This document shows, piece by piece, positions 3,808-51,982 of a stretch of DNA of 64,000 nucleotides (positions are counted from its first letter, which is position 1; every line of letters begins with the position of its first letter). The DNA is taken from positions 385,364 to 449,363 of the forward strand of contig NZ_CSTE01000001.1 in assembly GCF_001368915.1 (NCBI RefSeq), given 5' to 3'. The translations under genes and the position numbers were made by a program. This DNA comes from Haloferax massiliensis. GTDB lineage: Archaea; Halobacteriota; Halobacteria; Halobacteriales; Haloferacaceae. The notes under the pieces are model-generated. The model was not told the origin of the DNA. It made no database searches and saw nothing but the letters and a program-made list of their open reading frames with translations.

Positions 3808-4446
3808 ATGCTCCGATACGTCACCACGAACGCGGGGAAGGTCCGCGAGGCGCTTTCGTACCTCGACGACGACGTGACCCAACTCGACTTCGACTACACC
3901 GAGGTACAGGCGTCCGACCTCGGCCCCATCGCGGCCCACGGCGCGCGCGAGGCGTACCGCTACGCCGACGAACCGGTGCTCGTGGACGACGCCGGGCTCT
4001 TCATCGACGGCTTCGAGGGCTTCCCGGGCCCGTACTCCTCGTACGTCGAAGACACCCTCGGCGTCGAGGCGGTCCACCGACTGGCCGCGGCCGAACTCGA
4101 CGAGCCCCGGCGGGCCTCCTTCCGATGTGTCCTCGCGTACTGCGACGGCGAGCCCTTCGAGGCGAGTCCGGACCCGATAGACCGCGACGACCGGACCGTC
4201 GCGGCCGCCCGCGGCGCGGAGCAGGACGCGGAGGAGACGGAGGCGCTCCCGGTGAAACTCTTTACGGGGAGCGTCAACGGCCGCATCGTCCCGCCGCGCG
4301 GCGAGGGCGGCTTCGGCTACGACCCCATCTTCGAACACGACGGCGCGACGTTCGCGGAGATGAGCGCCGAGGAGAAAAACGGCATCTCCCACCGCGGGCG
4401 GGCGTTGGCGAAGTTCGCGACGTGGTTTGCTGAGCGAACGGAGTGA
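3808..4446 (+). CDS. Non-canonical purine NTP pyrophosphatase (ITPase/HAM1/RdgB)
   Basis: 212 aa. Hydrolyses ITP/dITP/XTP to monophosphates, cleansing nucleotide pools. Family motifs: N-terminal VTTNAGKVREA (substrate loop), VLVDDAGLFIDGFEGFPGPYSSYV (about 52-75), the GGFGYDPIF motif near 171, and the final NGISHRGRAL near 192. Between about 112 and 150 there is an acidic insertion (DPIDRDDRTVAAARGAE) not present in the core fold, probably a halophilic loop. The last codons (ERTE and TGA) lie inside a hairpin (4425-4457), so the extreme C-terminus may have been rewritten by that repeat. Confidence 0.93.
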   Translation: MLRYVTTNAGKVREALSYLDDDVTQLDFDYTEVQASDLGPIAAHGAREAYRYADEPVLVDDAGLFIDGFEGFPGPYSSYVEDTLGVEAVHRLAAAELDEPRRASFRCVLAYCDGEPFEASPDPIDRDDRTVAAARGAEQDAEETEALPVKLFTGSVNGRIVPPRGEGGFGYDPIFEHDGATFAEMSAEEKNGISHRGRALAKFATWFAERTE

Positions 4447-4520
4447 GCGAAGCAAACGTCGTCGGGCGCGAAGCGTCCGACGGAAGTACGCCGAGCGGTA
4501 GCGAAGCGTCCGACGGAAGT
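4425..4520 (+). repeat. Hairpin with GAACGGAGTGA loop, GAA-loop hairpin and 20-bp direct repeat
   Basis: Three structures are packed here. (1) GTTTGCT (4425-4431) pairs with AGCAAAC (4451-4457) around a loop holding GAACGGAGTGA; the ITPase stop codon is in that loop. (2) GTCGGGCGC (4461-4469), triloop GAA, GCGTCCGAC (4473-4481), nine pairs with one G-T. (3) The 20-mer at 4468-4487 (gcgaagcgtccgacggaagt) is repeated exactly at 4501-4520. The first hairpin shares its loop with hairpins around the tRNA genes of this window. Confidence 0.85.
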
Positions 4521-4594
4521 TCGCTGAACGGGAGCGGCCGGCGACCACCGCCACCGGCCGCTACGTTTACCCCGGCGGAGCGACCCCGAGACGC

Positions 4595-14308: not shown

Positions 14309-14397
14309 GAGTGCGAGTGGGGCGGGTCAGTTTCGACCGAAATCCGGCAACTGCTCGGCGACGAGACGCCTCGCTCGGCAGTTGGAGTTCGAGAAGA

Positions 14398-14493
14398 GCC
14401 TAGGCCGGGATTTGAACTCACTCGCAAATCAGAGATTTGCTCGCTGCTCAAATCCGGCTACGGCTTCTGCTCGTCACGTTGTTCCTCACAGAA
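14398..14493 (-). repeat. tRNA-Thr 3'-end satellite with hairpins
   Basis: Positions 14398-14417 repeat exactly the last 20 bases of the tRNA-Thr gene (14495-14514), 97 bp downstream of it. In between: 14408-14415 pairs with 14448-14455 (8 bp, the T-arm sequence and its complement), enclosing a 7-bp hairpin 14424-14430/14434-14440 and the flanking 11-mers at 14417-14427 and 14437-14447. Next to the tRNA end, TTCTG (14465-14469) pairs with CAGAA (14489-14493) around a loop whose tRNA-strand sequence includes GAACAACGTGA. The same design recurs at the tRNA-Gly gene. Confidence 0.85.
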
Positions 14494-14565
14494 AGCCTAG
14501 GCCGGGATTTGAACCCGGGGTCTCGTCCTTACCAAGGACGCGCTTTACCGCTAAGCTACCCAGGC
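14494..14565 (-). tRNA. tRNA-Thr (anticodon GGT)
   Basis: Read on the minus strand: acceptor GCCTGGG pairs with CCTAGGC (one G-T); D-arm region GCTTAGCGGTAAAGC; anticodon stem CGTCC/GGACG around loop TTGGTAA, giving anticodon GGT (decodes ACC); T-arm CCGGG TTCAAAT CCCGG. CCA is not encoded. No intron. Confidence 0.97.
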
Positions 14566-16926: not shown

Positions 16927-17191
16927 GGAACCCGGTTGGAACCGGGGGCCCAAATAGTCACGTGTCACGCGAAAACAATGGACGGGCGTCCAGTTTCCGC
17001 GGGGGTTCGATGGGGTGAAGCGCTACGTTCAAGTGCCCCCGCAGTCTACGAGTTTTTGCTTCGGAAGACGGTTCGAAGCGTAGCGCGCCGATGTGTTGTC
17101 GAACGACGTGAGACAACGCGCGGGGCGAACGAATGTGAGCGCCGATGGGTGACTGAACGAAGTGAAGTCAGCCACGGGGCGAATGCAATGA
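16927..17191 (+). repeat. Repeat-rich region upstream of tRNA-Gly with two GAACGANGTGA-loop hairpins
   Basis: No gene seen. The tRNA's 5' sequence (cgccgatg) occurs twice ahead of the real gene, near 17086 and 17140, each followed by a hairpin. Hairpin one: GTTGTC (17095-17100), loop GAACGACGTGA, GACAAC (17112-17117). Hairpin two: TGACT (17150-17154), loop GAACGAAGTGA, AGTCA (17166-17170). Stems differ, loops agree in ten of eleven bases. The segments cggggcgaa...gagcgccgatgg preceding 17147 and 17202 are also near-repeats of each other. Confidence 0.75.
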
Positions 17192-17262
17192 GCGCCGATG
17201 GTCCAGTGGTAGGACACGAGCTTCCCAAGCTCGGAGCCCGGGTTCAATTCCCGGTCGGCGCA
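17192..17262 (+). tRNA. tRNA-Gly (anticodon CCC)
   Basis: Acceptor GCGCCGA (17192-17198) pairs with TCGGCGC (17255-17261), discriminator A. D-arm region GGTCCAGTGGTAGGACA; anticodon stem CGAGC/GCTCG around loop TTCCCAA, anticodon CCC (decodes GGG); T-arm GCCCGGGTTCAATTCCCGG region. No intron, CCA not encoded. Confidence 0.97.
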
Positions 17263-17396
17263 TTTCTACCGAGACAACGAGCGAGCAACCGCTCTGCGTG
17301 TTGCTCGTTCTTGTCGAGTGTGTATGCGGCCCGAGGGAATTGAAGCAGCGAGCAACGCGAAGCGTTGCGAGTGAGGTTCAATTCCCGGTCGGCGCA
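17263..17396 (+). repeat. tRNA-Gly 3'-end satellite with hairpins
   Basis: Positions 17375-17396 are an exact 22-base copy of the tRNA-Gly 3' end (17241-17262), 134 bp downstream. GGGAATTGAA (17335-17344) pairs perfectly with TTCAATTCCC (17377-17386, T-arm of the copy). Inside lies GCAACGC-GAA-GCGTTGC (17352-17368). The connectors GCAGCGAGCAA (17345-17355) and TTGCGAGTGAG (17365-17375) are identical to those in the tRNA-Thr satellite. A further inverted repeat, GAGCAAC with GTTGCTC, lies at about 17283-17306. Confidence 0.87.
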
Positions 17397-51791: not shown

Positions 51792-51908
51792 AGAAACGGG
51801 CTGGGAGGGACTCGAACCGAGCCCAGACGTGCTCGCTTCGCTGTGCGCGACTGGTCGGGTTCAATCTCTCGAAGCCGTTTCACTCCTCACGGTTGTTCGG
51901 AGTAGAAA
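51792..51908 (-). repeat. tRNA-Lys 3'-end satellite with GAAC...GTGA-loop hairpin
   Basis: 51792-51818 matches 51904-51930 (tRNA-Lys 3' end plus its GTTTCT trailer) at 26 of 27 bases, 112 bp downstream of it. Between the copies, ACTCC (51882-51886) pairs with GGAGT (51899-51903), giving on the tRNA strand the loop GAACAACCGTGA. The copy itself can fold, as GGGCT (51798-51802) pairs with AGCCC (51820-51824). A stretch close to the Thr/Gly connector (TGCTCGCTTCGCTG) lies at 51830-51843. Confidence 0.83.

Positions 51909-51982
<74 letters not shown>

Follow-up and report, generated by a model that had tools for sequence, protein, structure and literature searches.

Hairpins beside haloarchaeal tRNA genes as modules of short non-coding cassettes that may recombine at tRNA-end repeats

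Introduction

tRNA genes are classic landing sites of mobile DNA and, to our knowledge, little is known about the evolution of the non-coding DNA around them in archaea. In the Escherichia coli tyrT operon, the rtT element consists of tandem units located 3' of the tRNA gene, each containing a copy of the tRNA 3' end. rtT is found at one locus in enterobacteria, with units of about 178 bp. The haloarchaeal units reported here are likewise arranged in tandem 3' of tRNA genes and carry a copy of the tRNA 3' end. They differ from rtT in length (about 80-130 bp), in their class-wide occurrence, with about half of a genome's tRNA genes carrying them, and in having an inverted T-arm and GA-module hairpins. 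The units in our window yielded no Rfam match to a curated family. Bacterial REP/BIME sequences are also dispersed extragenic hairpins. The stems of REP are conserved, whereas the haloarchaeal stems differ, their loops are common, and their location is tied to tRNA ends.

Among archaea, integrons have been described as cassette arrays with folded attC sites (PMC9668308), and integrases are known to favor the 3' ends of tRNA genes (PMC8371274). We analyzed a stretch of 64,000 nucleotides, hereafter the window (contig C1:385364-449363 of a 4.0 Mb Haloferax genome, with H. sulfurifontis and H. denitrificans as close kin). The original prediction for the window was a family of five hairpins having different, covarying stems and one common 11-nt loop, most of them near tRNA genes.

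Results

Hairpin grammar and its enrichment

All five predicted hairpins were present in the sequence. They had the same loop grammar, but RNA folding showed that the 11-nt loop is not open. In all five cases, the core folded into a stem, a GA/GA internal loop, 2 bp, and a tip of 3-4 nt. The two inner base pairs were A-T and C-G, and the tip was usually of the GNA type. The tandem GA/GA loops were symmetric (2x2) and without a bulge. Thus, the three-nucleotide bulge beside tandem GA pairs that would mark a kink-turn (box C/D, H/ACA) was not found, nor was there an Rfam match to such RNAs in the window. The hairpin at 14465 was present, but its TTCTG/CAGAA stem closes on an additional GA module and not directly on the 11-nt core.

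The background for the grammar consisted of 510 intergenic segments (244 kb) out of an 861 kb sample of the genome, and 20 dinucleotide shuffles. The GA/GA form followed by AC or GC and a 3-4 nt tip, with an outer stem of at least 4 bp, occurred 10 times in the ~244 kb, as compared with 0.35 in the shuffles. With an outer stem of at least 5 bp, there were eight matches against none in the 20 shuffles, and the predicted combination of loop and stem is therefore well above dinucleotide-shuffled sequence. Substitution of AG/AG, AA/AA, or GG/GG for GA/GA yielded no match with a stem of at least 4 bp in the ~244 kb, and CA/CA yielded two with a stem of at least 5 bp in the same DNA. In coding DNA, the grammar occurred twice in 640 kb. 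Twelve of the 14 matches in the genome sample having a stem of at least 3 bp adjoined a tRNA gene or a displaced copy of a tRNA end. A hairpin census without the GA rule was swamped by background GC hairpins and was abandoned.

Units at the tRNA genes of the window

Each of the three tRNA genes in the window (Gly, Thr, and Lys) was followed by a downstream unit, and tRNA-Gly(CCC) was also preceded by upstream units. The features are as follows.

3808-4446, plus strand: rdgB gene
4425-4457, plus strand: double-GA-module hairpin at the rdgB end, with the stop codon inside the hairpin
14397-14493, minus strand: downstream unit of tRNA-Thr, 97 bp, with hairpin 14465-14493, inverted T-arm 14448-14457, and second hairpin 14417-14447
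14494-14565, minus strand: tRNA-Thr(GGT)
17085-17138, plus strand: upstream unit A, with tRNA-Gly 5' end copy GCGCCGATG, hairpin GTTGTC-GAACGACGTGA-GACAAC (17095-17117), then GGGGC-GAACGAATGTGA
17125-17140, plus strand: third hairpin of the family, GC-GAACGAATGTGA-GC, between the two predicted ones
17139-17191, plus strand: upstream unit B, with tRNA-Gly 5' end copy GCGCCGATGG and hairpin TGACT-GAACGAAGTGA-AGTCA (17150-17170), abutting the tRNA
17192-17262, plus strand: tRNA-Gly(CCC)
17263-17396, plus strand: downstream unit of tRNA-Gly, with trailer hairpin, inverted T-arm 17335-17344, hairpin 17345-17376, and tRNA copy
51797-51908, minus strand: downstream unit of tRNA-Lys, 112 bp, with hairpin 51882-51903, inverted T-arm 51860-51867, and second hairpin 51817-51859
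51909-51982, minus strand: tRNA-Lys(TTT)

The predicted association with tRNA genes turned out to be strong, four of the five hairpins being parts of tRNA cassettes. The hairpins at 17095 and 17150 are the tips of the two upstream tRNA-Gly units. The tRNA-Thr unit has the hairpin at 14465 as its trailer hairpin, and the tRNA-Lys unit has the one at 51882. The downstream units end in copies of their own tRNA: 17377-17396 is an exact copy of tRNA-Gly nt 54-73, 14397-14416 is an exact copy of the tRNA-Thr 3' end, and 51797-51816 matches the tRNA-Lys 3' end with one mismatch and is followed by an older, decayed unit. The family is structured and has one loop grammar, as predicted, but the prediction was incomplete: the tRNA hairpins belong to larger cassettes in which the end of the tRNA is duplicated. 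Loop conservation is not explained by a tRNA-derived repeat, as the repeats are tRNA-derived and the loops are not.

Upstream of tRNA-Gly(CCC) there are repeats of the initial 9-10 nt of the tRNA, and a hairpin tipped by GAACGANGTGA comes after each copy. The right arm of the hairpin at 17125-17140 extends into the tRNA-Gly 5' copy. Unit A or a close variant was also found in several Haloferax relatives. These relatives have zero to three upstream units of three types, in the orders A-B-C, A-B, B-C, B, C, or none, and once A-C'-B. Upstream units of Haloarcula, Halorientalis, and Salinigranum are versions particular to these genera, with different stems. Among 83 tRNAs of the named relatives, upstream 5' copies occurred only at tRNA-Gly(CCC) (17 of 35). 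For tRNA-Gly(TCC) there were single cases, in the Haloferax genome itself and at one other locus. The tRNA-Gly arrays mostly look like subsets of one ancestral array, and deletion alone could give them.

Cassette anatomy and distribution

A typical downstream unit follows the tRNA with a pyrimidine-rich trailer containing a hairpin, then an inverted T-arm (e.g., GGGATTTGAA), a second hairpin, and a stretch from TTCAAATCCC to the discriminator. The cassettes are roughly 50-130 bp long. The trailer motif GAGGAAC-N-CGTGACGAGC lies directly 3' of the ends, or of an evident copy, of tRNAs for Thr, Gly, Lys, Pro, Arg, and Gln in many genera; three more matches were evidently coding. The second hairpins form families whose 5' and 3' signatures are coupled (CAGGGA...GACCGTGG, CCCTG...CTCCGG, CACGG...CATCGGG, and GTAGACC...GGCGTGG), and these families recur at different tRNAs with interchangeable inner hairpins. 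Their non-Watson-Crick internal loops are conserved, and they are coupled on both sides across tRNAs.

We oriented 50 of the 51 tRNA genes of the Haloferax genome. Of these, 23 had their own nt 54-73 (the last 20 nt, from T54 to the discriminator) copied again within 300 nt downstream, with the displaced copy typically 80-130 bp from the tRNA. In a pooled set of 207 loci, part of which was chosen because units were present, 110 had a downstream copy at a median distance of 94 nt (5th-95th percentile, 74-168 nt); controls in this set gave 0 of 207 upstream and 1 of 207 for a heterologous tRNA. The copy matched the tRNA end without any difference in 36 of 49 first units. Sixty sites with flanks were chosen by the inverted T-arm signature itself, and 57 of them lay just downstream of a tRNA, covering many isotypes, while none lay upstream; no tRNA was called at the remaining three. 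The signature was present in 55 of 59 Halobacteria genomes (0 for the reversed-pattern control) and in 0 of 101 genomes from other groups of the phylum. The unit counts are lower bounds because the analysis covered a sample of the genome (861 kb plus tRNA flanks), gene calling relied on a simple rule of GC by codon position, the 60 sites were signature-selected, and the pattern demands a GGATTYGAA-type T-arm. We also observed a solitary unit with an inverted T-arm and hairpins at L015:16001-16018 (C1 ~296 kb), with no tRNA gene recognized nearby, which is probably a relic.

The inverted T-arm had an average score of 24.5, as compared with 13.8 in shuffles, and over nt 54-64 it was closer to the tRNA of its own unit than to other tRNAs. 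A dumbbell model, consisting of the tRNA end, a loop, a full inverted tRNA end, and a loop, was dropped as a general description, since the inverted copy averages nt 54-64. Extension of the inverted copy into the acceptor strand and trailer was significant against shuffles in 10% of 49 units; it was clearest at tRNA-Thr, and inspection by eye showed it at Gln, Lys, and Tyr as well. In the direct copy, the acceptor part (nt 65-73) has on average no pairing partner, yet it is as identical as the rest.

Presence and absence among relatives

Close relatives differ by the precise presence or absence of units. The 97-bp tRNA-Thr unit was also found in H. gibbonsii and, in an altered form, in H. sulfurifontis; it was precisely absent from H. 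marisrubri, H. denitrificans, and H. prahovense. In Halogeometricum limi, about 6 of 77 positions of the tRNA-Thr unit differ (~92% identity, counted by eye), although the surrounding non-coding DNA is unrelated. The tRNA-Lys unit was present in H. sulfurifontis and missing in H. marisrubri and Haloferax sp. Q22. In several relatives, the older, decayed unit lies directly 3' of tRNA-Lys; in the window and in H. sulfurifontis, the newer unit lies between them. As the support of the key tree node is 0.516, gain and loss are not separable for this difference. At tRNA-Tyr, an 83-bp unit was found as an exact tandem duplicate. Recombination between the 20-bp repeats would restore an empty-looking site.

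The tRNA-Lys(TTT) gene itself has an insertion of ~34 bp in the anticodon loop in five Haloferax genomes (H. sulfurifontis, H. marisrubri, sp. Q22, and two further ones; L402-L406). This insertion, which is absent from the window and from eight further genomes, probably represents an archaeal tRNA intron. The DNA immediately 3' of tRNA-Thr(GGT) was unrelated among Haloferax species (loci L021, L023, and L027-L032), which suggests, from sequence comparison, that it is a hot spot for larger integrations. A further tRNA, tRNA-Leu at C2:467983, is followed by an integrase match, and a displaced array of tRNA-end units lies ~10 kb further on, at ~C2:477950 (L096:19850-20000). The layout looks as if an integrated element had separated the tRNA from its old cassettes.

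The hairpin at the end of rdgB

The hairpin at the end of rdgB has the same grammar, but it is not a tRNA cassette. RNA folding yielded two GA modules in series. At the stop-codon position of rdgB, nearly all of 15 Haloferax genomes have hairpins with differing stems and the same loop grammar, so the grammar is not confined to tRNAs. In an alignment of 12 sequences, two of which came from further downstream hairpins of one genome, 94.8% of the cells pair; none of 500 shuffles reached this value, and slid controls gave 17-45%. Both-sided changes were found in six of eight pairs, including one inner pair (G-C to A-U), along with one-sided U-G changes. The predicted covariation of the stems thus holds at rdgB, where the changes are compensatory. 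At the tRNAs, it has to be qualified, because part of many stems derives from the tRNA (inverted T-arm) and the differences are partly local tRNA sequence. The region 3' of rdgB (4425-4560 of the window) contains tandem hairpins with GAA or GGTA tips, shuffled between species, and direct repeats GAAGCGTCCGACGGAAGT.

In one genome, the rdgB hairpin was a mismatched hybrid of two stem types, and whole arms were replaced. This pattern would be expected if mutation alone were at work, that is, if stable mini-hairpins with GNA tips provoked template switching that copies neighboring sequence into the opposite arm. The frequent identity of the stems with local sequence (tRNA T-arm, rdgB codons) points in the same direction, as does the exceptional stability of GCGAAGC-type tips in DNA. 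Such a process would produce neither the direct 20-nt copy of the tRNA nor internal loops that are conserved and asymmetric, and it leaves the tRNA association unexplained. A general mutational cause is also at odds with a tRNA-linked form that is confined to Halobacteria and absent from the 101 other genomes of the phylum. We therefore consider mutation alone a very improbable origin.

Strand bias and folding

The GA cores favored the tRNA-sense strand over the antisense strand, with ratios of 62:2 in other genomes and 38:5 in the Haloferax genome. Together with the conserved internal loops, this bias suggests folding of a single strand and an importance of the resulting structure. Such findings would also be produced by a functional RNA trailer. 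The units would be co-transcribed with the tRNA, and their hairpins would serve 3' processing, termination, or exonuclease protection; selection would keep the arrays, and gene conversion in polyploid cells would keep the copies identical. The folding energy is lower for the sense strand, the coupled internal loops of the second hairpin recur across tRNAs, and rdgB shows covariation with one-sided U-G changes, all of which accord with this explanation. However, the energy bias is largely base composition (-2.0 kcal/mol observed versus -1.4 kcal/mol in shuffled sequences). In the inverted T-arm copy, G-T and A-C mismatches were about equal (22 versus 21), so RNA pairing is not favored in this dyad. 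A trailer function does not account for the lack of a unit at about half of the tRNA genes, the clean loss of units by close relatives, or the intactness of the unpaired acceptor part. On balance, we judge a purely functional trailer to be possible but rather unlikely.

Comparison with integrons and integrases

Like integrons, the units form arrays at a fixed site and contain imperfect dyads with variable arms and conserved unpaired positions. In an integron, the newest cassette is expected next to the fixed site. Among the 31 haloarchaeal arrays with at least two copies, the distal copy was worse than the tRNA-proximal one in 13, equal in 18, and better in none. Here, however, the tRNA T-arm forms the dyad, the tRNA gene itself serves as the fixed site, and the units contain no genes. 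The R boxes RYYYAAC/GTTRRRY were not found; the units carry GATTTGAAC/GTTCAAATC, with C where a purine is required. The integron integrase IntI (TIGR02249) had no match in the Haloferax genome.

The units also resemble the products of tRNA-targeting tyrosine integrases (PMC8371274), for which the target runs from the T-arm to the 3' end, the tRNA is restored, and a fragment copy is left. A direct copy of the tRNA 3' end beside an intact tRNA is what an att scar would contain, and decaying proviruses or plasmids at tRNA 3' ends could have left such attR-like fragments. The preference of archaeal integrases for tRNA 3' ends (PMC8371274), the integrase match and displaced array at tRNA-Leu, and the unrelated DNA beside tRNA-Thr in several relatives fit an origin from ordinary integrative elements. 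The haloarchaeal units differ in being small (0.08-0.13 kb), non-coding, and equipped with structured hairpins. There are no element genes between the copies, whose spacing, typically 74-168 nt, is too short for an integrase gene. Random decay would not give this spacing, the same compact anatomy, and the same hairpin families across dozens of tRNAs and dozens of genera, and an inverted T-arm is not expected from it. Scars of this kind are thus an improbable source of the units.

Discussion

We propose that the tRNA hairpins are modules of short non-coding cassettes whose arrays may gain and lose units by recombination at the repeated tRNA ends, a reading drawn from sequence comparison to which we give an even chance. 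The downstream cassette comprises the tRNA, the trailer hairpin, the inverted T-arm (nt 54 to ~64), the second hairpin with conserved internal loops, and the copy of nt 54-73. The upstream cassette at tRNA-Gly consists of repeated tRNA 5' ends with a hairpin after each of them. An entering unit may insert at the T-arm or 3' end and supply the working tRNA end; the old end would be pushed downstream, where it would decay. Units would be lost when the repeats recombine with each other. Folding probably involves the tRNA-sense strand, either as RNA or as single-stranded DNA during recombination. Recombining cassettes fit the data better than a purely functional trailer because of the direct copy with its unpaired but intact acceptor part, the polarity of the arrays, and the clean presence or absence of units. 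Simple insertion of whole units does not account for the sharing of hairpins across tRNAs when the unit ends are tRNA-specific.

Recombination of the cassettes may be driven by a cellular tyrosine recombinase acting at the tRNA-derived dyad, or by homologous recombination alone. The Haloferax genome had 14 tyrosine-recombinase matches, 11 of them above the family cut-off. A more specific version would be a haloarchaeal integron-like system with the tRNA gene as its insertion platform. Mini-cassettes devoid of genes would travel as folded single strands, and a cellular tyrosine recombinase would act at the T-arm, so that each insertion replaces the working 3' end and stores the old one downstream. 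We regard this version as doubtful.

Carriage by viruses or plasmids was considered and rejected. The tRNA-Thr unit had no match in plasmid or phage records, and pattern matches in viral contigs were mostly variable arms of phage tRNA-Ser. One contig classed as viral, IMGVR_UViG_3300000875_000004 (L159:13744-14002), contains tRNA-Glu and, downstream of it, two tRNA-end units of the ordinary haloarchaeal type; it probably includes host DNA or a provirus edge.

In the window, tRNA alone reached the Rfam gathering score, and we found no earlier description of tRNA-end cassettes in the openly licensed literature. Judged on this literature, the tRNA-end hairpin cassettes are a seemingly undescribed family. 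For annotators, the results give a reason against labeling these repeats as spurious open reading frames or as pseudo-tRNAs. The genetic tractability of Haloferax volcanii permits direct tests of whether cassettes are gained, lost, or transcribed, and of what they do. Class-wide cassettes at nearly half of a genome's tRNA genes, with copies of the tRNA ends and a common hairpin grammar, would amount to a new kind of element, mobile or recombining, or else to a new level in how tRNA genes are organized.
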